DNA from: an archaeon
GTDB lineage: Archaea > Aenigmatarchaeota > Aenigmatarchaeia > GW2011-AR5
Assembly (NCBI GenBank): GCA_016191585.1
Contig: JACPVU010000008.1
Location: forward strand, 1 to 33,829
Direction: 5' to 3'
Length of the DNA stretch: 33,829 nucleotides
Under the pieces are notes generated by a model, which worked only from the letters and a program-made list of their open reading frames with translations, was not told the DNA's origin and searched no databases. Shown one piece after another: positions 14,817 to 31,421 of this stretch (position 1 is the first letter of the stretch; each line of letters starts with the position of its first letter). A program made the position numbers and the translations under genes.

Positions 14817-14986
14817 TGCGCCCGCCGGGATTCGAACCCGGATCATCAGCCGAACTTCTTGGGAAGAAGTTCGATCAAGAACCTTCCCATAGATTTACTT
14901 CTGATACAGCCTTTATTTCTTAATCGACTTTCTTTCCTAAAGAAAGTCGTTGGAAGGCTGAGGTCCTACCATTAGACTACGAGCGC
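14817..14986 (-). tRNA. tRNA-Gly(UCC) with ~99-nt intron (approx. 14852-14950)
   Basis: Acceptor GCGCTCG/CGGGCGC+A, D-arm GTCTAATGGTAGGAC, anticodon arm TCAGC-CTTCCA...G-GCTGA, T-arm CCGGGTTCGAATCCCGG. Confidence 0.88.
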
Positions 14987-16449: not shown

Positions 16450-19400
16450 ATGGGAAAAGAAGTATTGTTAATTGTATTTCTGTTATTTCTCTTGGCGGGT
16501 TCTGTAGCCTTTGCGAGCTATATCGATGTATCTGCGATGGCTTACTCCAACTACAGCTCAAACGTTACTGTCAAGGGCTACATAAAATTTGATAATTCTT
16601 CAGGAATCCAGAACACAAATGTCAGCGGGGTTCTTGGCAGCTCGAACTTCACGGTCATAACAAATTCGCTCGGCTATTTTGAGTTCAACCTGTCTGCCCC
16701 GAATTCCACGGGACAATTTAACGTTTCCCTGTCAACAAACAATTCCCTCACCAAGGATACGAACATATATGTATCGAATATATCTGCTGTTCTTTTTAAT
16801 TTCACCGACAAAAAACCGCCTTTCACTAACGGCACGCCTTTCATCGTGAATGTGTCATTCACGGGAAATACTCCTGTTGTGCCACTGCTCGATATATTCA
16901 ATCCAAACAGCGGCAACTCAACGGGCTGGGTCATAGCAAACCTTTCGGCAAAAGTCAATGTCAGCTCGGTTATATACAATATTACAGTGCCTGCAAATGC
17001 GGACGGCATATATATCATAATTTTTGAAAAAGGCGCCGGCTCCACGTCGTTCCTGGTCAAATCGTCCATCATAGTAGTTGCAGGCGTCCAGGACTCGACC
17101 AATTCATCAACAACGAACTTCGGGCAGGGCGAGAATATCACGGTTGTCGGGAAAATAAGGGACGACACAGGTCCTATAATAACGGCAAACGTAACAGCAT
17201 ACATCACACTGCCGAATAGCACTGTTGTCAACGTGACGCTGACGCATTCGACAGTCACAAACGGCACGTATACTGGTGTGTTTGTTAATCCAGGCATTGC
17301 AGGCGAATATGATATAGAAATCGTTGCAAACACATCAACAAAGATCATAAAATCATCATCTACGGCTACAGTCCAGCAGTTCGACGGCAAGCTTGAGATA
17401 GTGAAGGATTTCTTCTTTGATTTCGGCTCGTCGTCGTCATTCCGCGCAGGCGGGCCTGTTGAATTCAATATCCTGATTACTAACCTGACAACTGATACAA
17501 TGCTTAATGGCAGCCTAACAGGAAATTCAGTTGACGTCAATTGCACGTCTATCAGCGTACAGCAATACAAGAATTCCATGACAGGCGCTGCAGTATCGTC
17601 GCCATCTTTGACAAAGAGTATTGGCCTGTTCAATGGACAAAATGTATGCAAGATCAGGTTCACAGCGCCTAGTGCTGACGGCATATACGCAATCACGCTG
17701 AACGCAAGCATAGGCGCGACAAATGCAACTGTCAACGCACCAACAGTACTTGCAACAGGATACTTCTCTGTGCAGAGCTATATAATGAAGCCAAGCCCTG
17801 TCTCCTCGATAGGAGGAGGAAAGGAGTTCCTGAGCTTCCTGATGCCGGGCGACAACGCCACATTTGAGATATCAGTGAGAAACCTTTCTGCAAGCAACGG
17901 CGCAGCTGTTGCAGGAAATTATATATCGAACTTCAACGTCACGAAAATAAGCCCGATGTCGTTCACAGGGACAGGCGACTCGTCAATAACTAATATTACT
18001 ATTCTCGAATACACTGCCGGTACAGCAACAGCAAATCCAAGGATCAAGATTGTACTGCCAGAGAACAGGACAGGTCCTAATTCAATAGAGTTCCAGGCAA
18101 CTGTAAATGGCACAACAATCACTGGAACTGCGTTCTATTTCGCGCGCTATGTTGAGGGATTTGTCTTCCCAGGCAGCTTCGGCGGCGGATTTGGTGCTGG
18201 TCCTGGCGGCGGTGAAGGAGGAGCCAGCAGTGGCGGAGGCGGTGGAGGTGGCGGTCCACCAGGCGGTGAGGGAGACTTTGGCGGACCTACGGGCGGGACC
18301 TTCAAGTGCAGCGGCCTGCAGAATTTCACAGCCAGAATATTTGACGTCCGCACGCGCCAGGCAGCAAGGAGCGTTACATTCAACTCCATTCAAGAGGCGA
18401 GGGAGGAAATGACAGGAAGGAGCGTTGCAAATTCGCTGTCGCTTGTTTCATCAACGTCAACGGACAGCAACGGCGTCGGCAACCTGACGATAAATTTCAC
18501 CGGTTCGATGTCAGGATTCCATTTCATGCTTATCAACATCACCACAAGTGACGGCAAATCTGATTCTCTGCCAGGAGGCTTCGAATGCAGGCAGCTGTCG
18601 TTCTTCCCGCAGATACAGGCAATAGGCACAACAACAGGAGGTTACTCTGTGGCACCGTCATCCGGCATAAATGTTACAATAGGCGGCATAAAGAATCTCA
18701 TCACATCAAACACAACAAGATGGGGCACTGTTACCGTGTCAAGGATTGAAAGCTACGATCCTTCAAAAGGGCCTAAGTTCATTCCAGGCCTGGCGTCTTC
18801 GTTCAACCTCAACAACGGCACTGTTGCATTCACGCTATTTCCGACTAACTTCTCAGGGCTTGGCGGCAAATGGTTCAACGGATTCAACCAGATGGTTATA
18901 AGAGTCTGCGACAATTCCACAGCACAGCAGACGTGCGACACAAGCTTCAGCGGGTTCCAGGTCGTTGCCTTTGACGCATTCCAGGACTATTCCGTTGGCA
19001 ACCCTTCACAGACGCTGATAGCAGGAACAAACACAACGTACAACATAATGGCAAGGACAAACGTGACGAATTTTACTGTGCAGATTGGAATGCCGTGGGA
19101 AGGCTCACTGGTGGATGCAAATGTTGTCAGTTATTCATTGAAATCAGACGGCTGGGATAATCCTTCAAATAATTCATACAACAACTTCGAACGCTGGAAC
19201 ATAACGTTTACTGTGCCGTCTGACCTCAGGAAAGGCGGCAACATGATAACTATCAAAGTAACCAATTATCTGAACGAGACGACTGACATAATGACGTTCG
19301 GAACAGCAAGCAAGCTGTCGATATCAGTGCCTGACACAGAAGGCGCTTTCATGGCAGGCTTCTTTATAGCTGCTAACGTGACAAATCCGACAGACATCCA

Positions 19401-20946
19401 GGCGTTCCTTTCTACGTATTCGTTGAACCTTACAACACTTAATTCCACATACAATGTAAATTCCAAGTCAGGAAGGGTCTGCGTTGCGAGGACATTCAAC
19501 ACGACAAGGTACGGGATGAACCAGCAGAACGTTATATATTCAGGACTCGCCAATACGACTATACTCATGCTTGACAACTCATCAGCTGGAAACTACGACA
19601 CGTTTATCGTAAGCGTCAGCAGCGGAAGCCAGATAGGCGTCGTGCATTCAGGAAACCGATCCCTTTCATCAGCAGGATTTGGCTACCTGTATTTTGCAAA
19701 GGCCGAAGACTGCGGATACGTGCAAATAGTCAACAGCCAGCTTAACGGAACAGGCTTTGGCTCAGGATTCGGGGGACAGCATGCCGTGAATACGATTGCA
19801 CAGATACCATTTATTGCAAGACAGGGATCTACTGCCAAAACAGGCGTCACTATTGATGTGTTCCAGATTATCAAGCAGGAAGACTTCGGAGGCGGCAGAG
19901 GCGGGTTCGGATTCTCCGGCAGCCTGCCATCAAGCAGCTATACAGTCACGTCAGCAACAACGGATGCGAATGGCATTGCTTTCCTAAGGCTTAATGTGTC
20001 AACAGCTGGATCATACAGCATAATGTGGAACTTCAGCACTGCTGCAGCGGACAATGATGTTGCCGATTTCTCTGAAGGAGTGCCTATAGAAATAAAAGCT
20101 CTCAAAACAGACGGCGGCATACTGACCGGGAACCATCCACTGCCTTTGAGAGTTGCCACATTCACAAGGAGCGACGAAACAAGGAACGCGACAATTGGCA
20201 ACAGCCCGATATACGCAGCAACATGGAACGAATCTTCCCAGGGAGAATTCCTGAACGACGGGAGCACCCGCTTCCTCTATCTGGCTATAAGAAACTCTAC
20301 GCAGTCCTCATATGGAGCTCCGCTATCAGCCATCCCCGGAGGCGCATTCACGGAGCTGGTCATCGACAACGATGGAAATCTCAATACAACAGCAAGTGAC
20401 GGCGGCGATGCGTTCGGTCCGGTATTCGGCAATTTCACAGAGCAGTTCGGCCCAAGCCAGCCAAGCTGGAGAAATATAATGGGCGACAGCCTCGAGATTG
20501 AAGAGAACCAGACAGTTGACGATAACACAACAAAGCTCGTGTTCGCAAATCCTAACATGATGCAATACAAGTTTATATTCAACACAGGCAGCTCAAACAG
20601 GATGGATGCCAACATCACAGTGCGTACCTGTGCCTATACATTCACAAATCCGCAGAAGCCGATAATAGGCGCGACGGTGTCGGGCCTCATAACAAGGAGC
20701 TTCAGCTTCAGCGGGCCGCCGGCAACAGAAAATCTCACGATATACAGCCCATTCAACGGAAGCGCTGTGGCATCACTGCTTACTGGCTACAGCGGATGCG
20801 CTGTGTTCAATGTTTCAAGAGTGAACGGCTGGAAATCAGGCGCACCCAACGAAATAAAGGCGACGATAACATCAGGAAGCTCCTCTGAGCAGGTTATGCT
20901 TGGAAACGTGATGGTCAGCTGCCCGTCATCAGGATCATGTTTTTGA
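16450..20946 (+). CDS. large secreted multidomain surface protein with Gly-rich linker
   Basis: 1498 aa; signal peptide MGKEVLLIVFLLFLLAGSVAFAS; Ig-like/macroglobulin-like beta modules; GGGFGAGPGGGEGGASSGGGGGGGGPPGGEGDFGG linker; many N-glycosylation sequons. Confidence 0.85.
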   Translation: MGKEVLLIVFLLFLLAGSVAFASYIDVSAMAYSNYSSNVTVKGYIKFDNSSGIQNTNVSGVLGSSNFTVITNSLGYFEFNLSAPNSTGQFNVSLSTNNSLTKDTNIYVSNISAVLFNFTDKKPPFTNGTPFIVNVSFTGNTPVVPLLDIFNPNSGNSTGWVIANLSAKVNVSSVIYNITVPANADGIYIIIFEKGAGSTSFLVKSSIIVVAGVQDSTNSSTTNFGQGENITVVGKIRDDTGPIITANVTAYITLPNSTVVNVTLTHSTVTNGTYTGVFVNPGIAGEYDIEIVANTSTKIIKSSSTATVQQFDGKLEIVKDFFFDFGSSSSFRAGGPVEFNILITNLTTDTMLNGSLTGNSVDVNCTSISVQQYKNSMTGAAVSSPSLTKSIGLFNGQNVCKIRFTAPSADGIYAITLNASIGATNATVNAPTVLATGYFSVQSYIMKPSPVSSIGGGKEFLSFLMPGDNATFEISVRNLSASNGAAVAGNYISNFNVTKISPMSFTGTGDSSITNITILEYTAGTATANPRIKIVLPENRTGPNSIEFQATVNGTTITGTAFYFARYVEGFVFPGSFGGGFGAGPGGGEGGASSGGGGGGGGPPGGEGDFGGPTGGTFKCSGLQNFTARIFDVRTRQAARSVTFNSIQEAREEMTGRSVANSLSLVSSTSTDSNGVGNLTINFTGSMSGFHFMLINITTSDGKSDSLPGGFECRQLSFFPQIQAIGTTTGGYSVAPSSGINVTIGGIKNLITSNTTRWGTVTVSRIESYDPSKGPKFIPGLASSFNLNNGTVAFTLFPTNFSGLGGKWFNGFNQMVIRVCDNSTAQQTCDTSFSGFQVVAFDAFQDYSVGNPSQTLIAGTNTTYNIMARTNVTNFTVQIGMPWEGSLVDANVVSYSLKSDGWDNPSNNSYNNFERWNITFTVPSDLRKGGNMITIKVTNYLNETTDIMTFGTASKLSISVPDTEGAFMAGFFIAANVTNPTDIQAFLSTYSLNLTTLNSTYNVNSKSGRVCVARTFNTTRYGMNQQNVIYSGLANTTILMLDNSSAGNYDTFIVSVSSGSQIGVVHSGNRSLSSAGFGYLYFAKAEDCGYVQIVNSQLNGTGFGSGFGGQHAVNTIAQIPFIARQGSTAKTGVTIDVFQIIKQEDFGGGRGGFGFSGSLPSSSYTVTSATTDANGIAFLRLNVSTAGSYSIMWNFSTAAADNDVADFSEGVPIEIKALKTDGGILTGNHPLPLRVATFTRSDETRNATIGNSPIYAATWNESSQGEFLNDGSTRFLYLAIRNSTQSSYGAPLSAIPGGAFTELVIDNDGNLNTTASDGGDAFGPVFGNFTEQFGPSQPSWRNIMGDSLEIEENQTVDDNTTKLVFANPNMMQYKFIFNTGSSNRMDANITVRTCAYTFTNPQKPIIGATVSGLITRSFSFSGPPATENLTIYSPFNGSAVASLLTGYSGCAVFNVSRVNGWKSGAPNEIKATITSGSSSEQVMLGNVMVSCPSSGSCF

Positions 20947-20985: not shown

Positions 20986-22482
20986 ATGAAAGGAAAACCA
21001 ATAAGTGCTGCATTGCTAGGACTACTGATGCTTCTGGCCTTTTTCATGCTGTCATCACTCGGCGCTGCCGAAACGCAATGTCTTACAGAAGTGTCAACGA
21101 GCACGTCAACGTCGCGCGCGACGACAGGAACAAGCGTCACAGTGACAGTGGCGACAACCGGCTCGTCCTGCACGATCAGCACGCTTTCATGTGTGTCGAC
21201 GCCTTCGCTGACAGTCAACGATCCGTCGAGCGGGCAGTACAGCGGCTTCTCTGCAGGCACTTCAAAAGCCTTTGCTGTCACAGCAGGAACAGCAGGCACC
21301 TATACTTATTATTCACGCGGAACAACAACAGCGGGCAGCGTAGACTCGACATCACAGATACTTGAATTCGTCTCGCCGTCTGATTTAACAATCACACCGT
21401 CGCCGTCTTCGGCAACTGTCACAAGCAGCAATTCGTTCAACCTCACGATGAATGTCCAGAATCCGCAGACAAGCGACATTTCCACGTCTTATGCGCTTAA
21501 CCTGCCTTCCGGCTTAACCAGGCAGAGCGGCGATCCTGCAAGTTCATCAGCCACGACAATAAGTGCGTCAAGCACAAAGGCGCTTGTATTTGAGATAAAA
21601 CACAGCACTTGCTTTACTGGCTCGAAAACAATAACTTTTGACCTAGGCGGCTCTTCTGGCGCTGCATCAGTTACTGTCACAGGCAATACGTCCTGCACGT
21701 CTACGACAACGACAACATCATCCTCTTCATCATCAGGCTCAAGCTCAAGCAGTTCGTCAAATACGACCAGCAACGTACTTGCGAACTATAACATAACTGT
21801 TGTGAAAATGGCAGCGGGCACGACCAGTTCAGTAAATATAATGGATGCAAACATAGCCGTAAAGCAGGTCATGGTAGACGTCAATGCCGACACGCAGAAC
21901 GTGAAGGTTTCGGCTTCAAGGCTTGCTGCCAAGCCGTCGTACATAACAAATAATGTGAACGGCAGCGTGTACCAGTACCTTGACTTGACGCTTACTAACC
22001 TGCCTGCAAGCAGCATAAGTTCAGGGAAAATAAGGTTCAACATGACCAAGCAATGGTTCACGTCGTATGGATTCCAGCCTTCTCACGTTTCAGCTTACAG
22101 GTATTATGTCAGCGACTGGCAAAAGCTCAATACAAGCATGATAAGCGAGTCTTCTACGGAATACCAGTTTGAGGCTGCAACGCCCGGATTCTCTGTATTT
22201 GTAATATCAGCATACAAGCCAGCTGTGGCCAATCAGACAATTTCATCAGCAAACCAGACAACGCCGACAGAGAACCAGACAGTTACACAAACATTAAACC
22301 AAACCGGCAACCAGACAGGCAACGGAACTGTTTCAGCAACCGATACCGGCGTGGGAACAGCATTCCCGCAGGACATGCTTTATGTTATTCTTGCAGTACT
22401 GGTGATGATCATTCTTTTTGTTGTCTACCACATTATACTGAAAAATAAGCCGGTCAAATACGAATTCAAGCCGAAGAAATAA
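20986..22482 (+). CDS. PGF-pre-PGF domain surface protein with C-terminal TM anchor
   Basis: Signal peptide; ISSGKIRFNMTKQWFTSYGFQPSHVSAYRYYVSDWQKLNTS...FEAATPGFSVFVIS; C-term TM MLYVILAVLVMIILFVVYHIIL + basic tail. Confidence 0.85.
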   Translation: MKGKPISAALLGLLMLLAFFMLSSLGAAETQCLTEVSTSTSTSRATTGTSVTVTVATTGSSCTISTLSCVSTPSLTVNDPSSGQYSGFSAGTSKAFAVTAGTAGTYTYYSRGTTTAGSVDSTSQILEFVSPSDLTITPSPSSATVTSSNSFNLTMNVQNPQTSDISTSYALNLPSGLTRQSGDPASSSATTISASSTKALVFEIKHSTCFTGSKTITFDLGGSSGAASVTVTGNTSCTSTTTTTSSSSSSGSSSSSSSNTTSNVLANYNITVVKMAAGTTSSVNIMDANIAVKQVMVDVNADTQNVKVSASRLAAKPSYITNNVNGSVYQYLDLTLTNLPASSISSGKIRFNMTKQWFTSYGFQPSHVSAYRYYVSDWQKLNTSMISESSTEYQFEAATPGFSVFVISAYKPAVANQTISSANQTTPTENQTVTQTLNQTGNQTGNGTVSATDTGVGTAFPQDMLYVILAVLVMIILFVVYHIILKNKPVKYEFKPKK

Positions 22483-29672: not shown

Positions 29673-29794
29673 GCAATATCAATTTCTCAAATCTTTTTAA
29701 ACCTGACTGCACAGAATAAGACTATGAGCAGTGGACGTCCCTGTTGTCGGTACTGATTCTTATCTGTTTAGATATAATAAAGGAGAGAAGAATG

Positions 29795-29825
29795 ATAAGG
29801 AAGAGAACCTTGGTTCTCGCCTTAT
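29795..29825 (+). promoter_or_regulatory. hairpin in tRNA-Cys 5' leader
   Basis: ATAAGG-aa-GAGAACC-tt-GGTTCTC-g-CCTTAT, ending 1 nt before the tRNA 5' end. Confidence 0.6.
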
Positions 29826-29826
29826 T

Positions 29827-29984
29827 GCTGGGTTGGCAGATCGGCCATGCGCCGGCCTGCAGACAAATCCCTTTTCTTGAAAGAAAAGGTCTTTGTATTC
29901 CCTAAAAGAACTCAAGGACTGTCAAGAAAGAAAGTGGATTGAAGCAGTAAGCCGGATAGGGGCGTTCAACTCGCCCACCCAGCT
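29827..29984 (+). tRNA. tRNA-Cys(GCA) with 87-nt intron (29863-29949)
   Basis: Acceptor GCTGGGT/ACCCAGC with U73; anticodon arm CCGGC-CTGCAG|intron|A-GCCGG; T-arm GGGCG-TTCAACT-CGCCC; central helix CTGC/GCAG with TAA 3' bulge consistent with a BHB splice motif. Confidence 0.9.
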
Positions 29985-30008
29985 CTGAATAAAGATAAAG
30001 GTGATTAT

Positions 30009-31421
30009 GTGCCGTTCAGGATTTTCAACACGATGAAGAGAAAGAAACAGGTTTTCAAGCTTGGACATATCAAGATCGTTAAGCTGTATACGTGCGGGCC
30101 GACTGTCTACAACTATGCACATATAGGAAATTTCCGCGCGTACCTTTTCTACGATATTCTGAGAAGATATTTAGAGTACATAGGCTATGAAGTGAAACAC
30201 GTCATGAATCTGACTGATGTGGACGATAAAACTATACGAGACAGCCAAAAAGAAAACATGGCTCTGAAGGATTTCACGCAAAAATATATAGACGCATTTT
30301 TCAACGATATAAAAATACTAAGGATAAAACCAGCCCATATTTATCCGAAGGCTACTGACCACATAAACGACATGGTTGACATGATAAAGAAATTGATGCT
30401 TAGGGGTTATGCGTACAGGGGAGATGATGGGTCGGTTTATTTTTCAATCAAAAAGTTTAAAAATTACGGGAAACTGTCAAAACTGAAGATAAAGAAACTG
30501 AAAGCCGGGGCAAGAGTCAGCCAGGACGAATACACCAAACAAGAGGCAAAGGACTTTGCCTTATGGAAAGCATGGATTCCTGAAGATGGTAACATTTTCT
30601 GGATAACGCCGCTTGGCAAGGGAAGGCCTGGCTGGCATATCGAATGCTCTGTAATGTCTCAGAAGTATTTGCAGTCCATAAACATACACGGCGGCGGTGT
30701 CGACCTGATATTTCCGCACCACGAAAACGAGATAGCGCAGTCGGAATGCTCGTCAGAAAAGAAGTTCGTGGACTACTGGGTTCACTGCAATCATTTGTAT
30801 GTGGACGGAAAAAAGATGAGCAAGTCGCTTGGCAACTTCTACACACTCCGTGATATCCTGGAAAAAAATTATGATCCCGTGGCTTTCCGGTATCTCTGCC
30901 TGTCAACCCATTACAGGAGCCAGCTGAATTTCACCTTTGGTTCATTGGAAAAAGCAAAAACAACAGTTGACAACTTCAACGAATTCCTGAGAAAACTGGA
31001 GTGGCTGCAGAAAGAGAAGTCAGACGTCAGGCCAAACCACATCCTTCATAAATTGATCAAAAACACGAAGGAGAAGTTCAGGAACGCCATGGACAACGAC
31101 CTCAATACGCCGCAGGCGCTGGCATCTGTTTTCAACCTTATCAAGGCCGTTAATATTGCAATAGACAAAAACACCGCTGACAAACGTACGCTGCAGGCGG
31201 TCTACAAGTTCCTTATGGAGATAAACGATATATTCGACATAGTGGAAAAAGAAAGTGCGGAAGAGCTTACGGCAGAAGAGAAAGGGTTGATCGAGAAAAG
31301 GGAGCAGCTAAGAAAGGAGAAAAACTTCGAAGAAGCCGATAAAATAAGGAATGCACTGAAGAATAGAGGCATTATTCTGGAAGACACGCCGCAGGGCGTC
31401 ATGTGGAAGAGAGAGAAATGA
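30009..31421 (+). CDS. cysS: cysteinyl-tRNA synthetase (GTG start)
   Basis: FRIFNTMKRKKQVF...LYTCGPTVYNYAHIGNFR (HIGH-type), GWHIECSVMSQKYL, HHENEIAQSE, KMSKSLGNF. Confidence 0.97.
   Translation: MPFRIFNTMKRKKQVFKLGHIKIVKLYTCGPTVYNYAHIGNFRAYLFYDILRRYLEYIGYEVKHVMNLTDVDDKTIRDSQKENMALKDFTQKYIDAFFNDIKILRIKPAHIYPKATDHINDMVDMIKKLMLRGYAYRGDDGSVYFSIKKFKNYGKLSKLKIKKLKAGARVSQDEYTKQEAKDFALWKAWIPEDGNIFWITPLGKGRPGWHIECSVMSQKYLQSINIHGGGVDLIFPHHENEIAQSECSSEKKFVDYWVHCNHLYVDGKKMSKSLGNFYTLRDILEKNYDPVAFRYLCLSTHYRSQLNFTFGSLEKAKTTVDNFNEFLRKLEWLQKEKSDVRPNHILHKLIKNTKEKFRNAMDNDLNTPQALASVFNLIKAVNIAIDKNTADKRTLQAVYKFLMEINDIFDIVEKESAEELTAEEKGLIEKREQLRKEKNFEEADKIRNALKNRGIILEDTPQGVMWKREK

Follow-up and report, generated by a model that had tools for sequence, protein, structure and literature searches.

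The window, by which we mean the whole 33,829-nucleotide stretch of archaeal DNA analyzed here, contains a complete tRNA-Cys(GCA) gene, interrupted by an intron, directly upstream of cysS on the same strand. The tRNA is probably the first cistron of a tRNA-cysS transcription unit that yields one shared precursor, and comparison of genomes indicates that the arrangement is an old and recurrent feature of the class. The features of the locus are as follows.

29767-29774, + strand: TATA-like sequence TTTAGATA, candidate promoter of the tRNA-cysS unit, matching TTTAWATA at 7 of 8 positions
29795-29825, + strand: predicted 5' leader hairpin (from folding) with core palindrome GAGAACCTTGGTTCTC at 29803-29818, ending 1 nt before the tRNA
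29827-29984, + strand: whole tRNA-Cys(GCA) gene, complete and intron-containing
29827-29862, + strand: exon 1, GCTGGGTTGGCAGATCGGCCATGCGCCGGCCTGCAG, tRNA positions 1-37, from ARAGORN, the covariance model and alignment with relatives
29863-29949, + strand: 87-nt intron at 37/38 with a predicted relaxed bulge-helix-bulge (BHB), from folding, ARAGORN and profile alignment
29950-29984, + strand: exon 2, tRNA positions 38-73, with U73 at 29984; CCA is not encoded
29985-30008, + strand: 24-nt gap between tRNA-Cys and cysS, CTGAATAAAGATAAAGGTGATTAT, with the Shine-Dalgarno-like AAAGGTGAT inside
30009-31421, + strand: cysS, cysteinyl-tRNA synthetase, GTG start, a full-length match to TIGR00435 (509 bits against a cut-off of 340, residues 4-468)

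The tRNA forms a cloverleaf with a GCA anticodon, U73 and an acceptor stem of seven Watson-Crick base pairs (GCTGGGT/ACCCAGC). The original prediction had described this gene, and on re-reading the sequence and with ARAGORN its coordinates, strand, acceptor, U73, anticodon, 87-nt intron and 24-nt distance from cysS all proved exact. The unspliced window gives no detection of the gene with default ARAGORN or Rfam RF00005, and at a loose threshold Rfam gave no meaningful match there. ARAGORN calls the spliced 71-mer tRNA-Cys(gca). In intron mode the program detects the gene with the splice point two bases off, and so prints Ser(gct). We rejected this call as a splice-point artefact. BHB geometry sets the cuts at AG^A and UA^A, relatives carry the same tRNA without an intron directly before cysS, and a tRNA-Ser requires a long variable arm; the identity is assigned as Cys for these reasons.

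Nine spliced tRNA-Cys sequences, the window's own and eight from relatives, were used to train a covariance model, which matches the window at this locus only (76.7 bits, E = 2e-18, with the window sequence in the training set). With strict filters the model missed the window gene and that of G024 in the genome scan, and sequence patterns and inspection of upstream regions were used instead. The unspliced RNA is predicted to fold into the cloverleaf plus an intron stem, with z = -4.1. The core is atypical, having a 13-22 mismatch in the D-stem and U at position 15; the mismatch is common to all nine aligned relatives. An atypical 15-48 pair has also been described for tRNA-Cys of Escherichia coli (PMC9976931). 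Two sequence patterns gave a single tRNA-Cys match in the assembly containing the window (756 kb, about 69% complete), and this is apparently its only tRNA-Cys. Since default Rfam and ARAGORN are blind to this tRNA, genomes of this kind can seem to lack tRNA-Cys through faulty annotation alone.

In the predicted fold the intron junction has a central CUGC/GCAG helix flanked by AGA and UAA bulges. A 5x3 internal loop (alternatively a 3x2 loop with a bulged A) shifts the intron-side helix away from it. The junction had been proposed to be BHB-compatible. The exon-side helix and the UAA bulge are as proposed, but the displaced intron-side helix departs from the strict motif, and the junction is best modeled as a relaxed BHB. 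The intron contains a stable hairpin at 29870-29889, and the tRNA-Cys of G001, from the same genus, is interrupted at the same position by a related intron of 55 nt. EndA is encoded in the genome of the window (PF01974 on contig C75, 95 bits, in an open frame of 208 codons) and in all five relatives that were checked.

Profile alignment of 42 tRNA-Cys loci reveals zero, one or two introns per gene, with lengths of 10-108 nt. They lie at 37/38, in the D-arm, in the anticodon stem and in the T-arm, the splice points away from 37/38 being approximate. As 13 of the 42 loci are intronless, and others have introns in other arms, the coupling of tRNA and cysS cannot depend on the intron, which has no demonstrated part in the arrangement. 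Linked tRNA-Cys genes with introns at four different places provide a natural series for studying intron gain and the breadth of EndA specificity. Within the 108-nt intron of L003 (G024) a stretch of about 46 nt is duplicated in tandem (CAACCTTTAAAAAAGGTTGGATCCAAAACCGAAGAARTTCAGTCAAAA). Just six tRNAs exceed the Rfam cut-off in the genome of the window and five of these matches span 106-170 bases, which suggests that introns are common there. The window itself has a tRNA-Trp(CCA) with a 97-nt intron at 14817-14986 on the - strand (Rfam RF00005, 52.9 bits; ARAGORN intron mode). A DUF3800-X RNA (RF02984, 54 bits against a cut-off of 38) is located at 1201-1269 on the + strand.

For the standard amino acids, the genes of a synthetase and its tRNA generally lie apart. 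The juxtaposition in the window had been thought uncommon, which fails within the class. We located cysS and inspected its upstream region in 59 and then 145 genomes of the class. A same-strand tRNA-Cys is found 13-56 nt before the cysS model match at 30 of the 108 class cysS loci, so the synteny comparison suggested with the original prediction shows the adjacency recurring in 30 genomes from 11 families. At 11 further loci tRNA-Cys lies 0.25-1 kb upstream of cysS, adding three families and bringing the total to at least 14. A structural detector applied to the 108 upstream regions gave 35 detections on the coding strand and three on the reverse strand; shuffled sequence gave none. One of the reverse-strand detections is a genuine divergent gene (G008) and at least one is due to chance; computed matches at L214 and on the reverse strand of L022 were discarded as chance on inspection. 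No tRNA-Cys was found near cysS at any of 79 named loci from outside the class, searched with ARAGORN in intron mode up to 3 kb on each side. These were drawn from 80 named loci fetched by similarity to the window cysS, with other archaeal phyla represented by six loci. The class arrangement has the layout of a cognate tRNA-synthetase operon, on the same strand, with a short gap and conserved in relatives.

Some loci have other tRNA sequences in the vicinity. At L220 (G085) an apparent tRNA-Gly(GCC) with a T-loop intron is directly upstream of cysS, and in the f9 genomes a tRNA-Gly is also near tRNA-Cys and cysS. L151 (G005, C7:38167-38249) and L122 (G013, C11) have 3' parts of tRNA-Cys, for which a pattern search found no 5' half nearby; that of L151 directly follows a long hairpin. 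A split tRNA, decay or an assembly gap are candidate explanations. At L145 (G015) and L147 (G017) the 5' half of a second tRNA-Cys, with a T-rich end, immediately precedes an intact tRNA-Cys of another acceptor type.

The 24-nt gap in the window contains no T-run and no TATA-like site. The original prediction of no evident separate promoter for cysS is upheld, as the gap is too short and the best TATA-like site, TTTAGATA, precedes the tRNA. This is the sole TATA-like 8-mer in 29690-30008, although with a background of 1.6 per kb it carries little weight alone, and its distance of 60 bp from tRNA-Cys would make the leader unusually long. Throughout the class the gap between tRNA-Cys and the start codon is mostly 11-43 nt. 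T5 runs are lacking from 28 of the 30 tight gaps, the exceptions being G029 and G049 with T-runs of 5-6 after the tRNA. A TATA-like site occurs within the T-arm plus gap at four of the 30 tight loci, with none at the other 26, and upstream of the tRNA at 18 of the 30, often at -28 to -35. The short gaps, the paucity of T5 runs and the location of TATA-like sites upstream of the tRNA rather than in the gap constitute the main argument for one transcript. As the gaps leave too little room for cysS to have a promoter of its own, the best model is a tRNA-mRNA precursor processed by RNase P, EndA and RNase Z.

We infer the following pathway. Transcription from a promoter upstream of tRNA-Cys would generate a single tRNA-mRNA precursor, which RNase P would cut at 29827. 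EndA would excise the 87-nt intron via the relaxed BHB, and cleavage by RNase Z after U73 would release a cysS mRNA having a 24-nt leader with its own ribosome-binding site. The arrangement keeps the sole tRNA-Cys with its charging enzyme, and has apparently persisted through repeated replacement of cysS. Coupling of tRNA maturation to CysRS expression, put forward in the original prediction, is a conjectural consequence of such co-transcription.

The palindrome GAGAACCTTGGTTCTC of the leader hairpin has a single copy in the genome of the window. Similar hairpins precede tRNA-Cys in G008 and G011, and comparison of the upstream regions of relatives showed none before tRNA-Cys in G001, G014 and others. 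In G008 the GAGAACCTAGGTTCTC form of the palindrome is dispersed in many exact copies, and a variant also precedes tRNA-Cys there. We rejected the palindrome as a class-wide regulatory element, since it is absent in most relatives and is a dispersed repeat in G008.

The window belongs to family f1, whose tRNA-Cys is similar throughout. In most sampled members the distance between tRNA-Cys and cysS is 6-12 kb, or the two genes are divergent or lie on different contigs. In G001 the tRNA lies just after a PAP2 phosphatase gene, the same gene that is upstream of tRNA-Cys in the window; cysS follows 6.2 kb further along the same strand. In G008 it is divergent from cysS at a distance of about 245 bp, and in G003, G014 and G015 a two-gene cassette of large putative surface proteins stands between the two. 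Homologues of this cassette are found in the window at 16450-20946 and 20986-22482, encoding two large proteins (1498 and 498 aa) without a Pfam match. The homologues of this pair are beside cysS in G003 and G015, and more distant in G014; it is a putative variable surface-protein cassette near the locus. The linkage is not indispensable, being loose or lost in most f1 members. The adjacency in the window could have been re-formed by deletion. Given the tight same-strand adjacency in ten other families, the simpler reading is that it has been retained.

The genome of the window has one copy of cysS above the family cut-off, and the cysS genes at these loci are not orthologous. In a tree of 64 cysS sequences those of the window, G001 and G002 do not group with their counterparts in G008, G009 and G018, which belong to the same family. 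Monophyly of these six f1 members is rejected (AU p = 0.00016), as is that of all 30 class sequences (p = 1e-39), and the class cysS sequences are polyphyletic and interleaved with those of bacteria. Downstream of cysS, the window, G003 and G008 all have genes for RNase P component 4 and S19e; in the window the former is 1.6 kb downstream of the locus and scores 67 bits, below its cut-off of 162. In family f2 a GCGAGGT acceptor is common to G024, G019 and G029. As the flanking genes and the family tRNA-Cys stay while cysS differs, the simplest account is that cysS was replaced in place beside a resident tRNA-Cys. That the two genes stay linked across the class even where the enzyme has been replaced suggests either selection for expressing them together or a genomic route for swapping synthetases while keeping the matching tRNA. 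The locus might even be a fixed slot in which the tRNA stays, cysS is repeatedly replaced, often by a bacterial-type gene, and tRNA and enzyme feed back on each other through the shared precursor, with CysRS acting on the tRNA ahead of its own coding sequence, but we regard this fuller scheme as doubtful.

Other explanations of the locus must be weighed against a shared precursor. The two genes could be adjacent without co-transcription, the tRNA having its own promoter and termination, with a cysS promoter inside the tRNA and the order preserved because compact genomes break up slowly. This would accommodate the loose or lost linkage in many relatives, including most of f1, and the T-runs after the tRNA in two of the tight gaps. 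Yet in gaps of this size a BRE/TATA element would fit only inside the GC-rich T-arm, where most of the tight loci have no TATA-like site, and same-strand upstream placement dominates (30 tight cases, with clear exceptions in the divergent G008 and in G050, where the tRNA is just downstream of cysS). We therefore consider this rather unlikely. It is also conceivable that CysRS binds the nascent pre-tRNA at the front of the cysS transcript, or that this pre-tRNA senses charging; the tRNA would then be an autoregulatory leader as well as a product. The tRNA is a natural ligand of the encoded enzyme, placed in the leader of that enzyme's own mRNA, the linkage persists despite cysS replacement and the intron has a stable hairpin. 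Such regulation is nevertheless improbable, as no leader or intron structure is conserved across the class, where intron positions and lengths vary and many loci are intronless.

The polyphyly of the class cysS could be taken to mean that tRNA-Cys and cysS were acquired together as a cognate pair. However, members of a family have almost the same tRNA and yet differ in cysS (in f1, and in f2 with its GCGAGGT acceptor), the flanking RNase P component 4 and S19e genes are unmoved, indicating replacement of cysS alone, and no tRNA-Cys adjoins cysS in the bacterial relatives examined. Joint transfer is thus very improbable. That the tRNA is a pseudogene or a mis-called tRNA-Ser is scarcely credible. 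The Ser(gct) call, the lack of an Rfam match and the atypical core would be consistent with it, but intronless relatives with the same core are read as Cys(gca), the stems are all intact and there is no long variable arm; the relatives largely refute this reading. A tRNA-cysS precursor remains the explanation that we favor.

A literature search, with most subscription journals outside its coverage, found no report of tRNA-Cys-cysS linkage in this group. Comparable associations are known elsewhere. In the pylTS cluster of methanogens the tRNA-Pyl gene is directly upstream of that for its cognate PylRS (PMC9499178), the same order as in the window. But pylTS is a dispensable extension of the code, while the window has a housekeeping Cys pair whose tRNA contains introns. 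tRNA-Cys occurs in a compact operon with SepRS/SepCysS in Bathyarchaeota BA2 and others (PMC5424206). Both arrangements join tRNA-Cys with enzymes that make Cys-tRNA, although that of the window is the direct CysRS rather than SepRS/SepCysS. Operons of tRNA-Trp and TrpRS-A, whose synthetase has been transferred laterally, are found in CPR bacteria and archaea (PMC5370408); they share with the window the layout of a cognate operon and, probably, transfer of the enzyme. TrpRS-A genes are extra copies beside a canonical pair, however, whereas the genome of the window has the one cysS. Multiple and non-canonical tRNA introns in archaea have been described mainly from Crenarchaeota, Thaumarchaeota and Nanoarchaeota (PMC4090602). 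The window resembles these in its 37/38 site, predicted relaxed BHB and the presence of EndA, but differs in that one linked tRNA-Cys carries 0-2 introns within a single class, placed variously in the D-arm, anticodon arm or T-loop. Cognate tRNA-synthetase operons are therefore already known, and the pair in the window is a housekeeping, class-wide and intron-variable variant.
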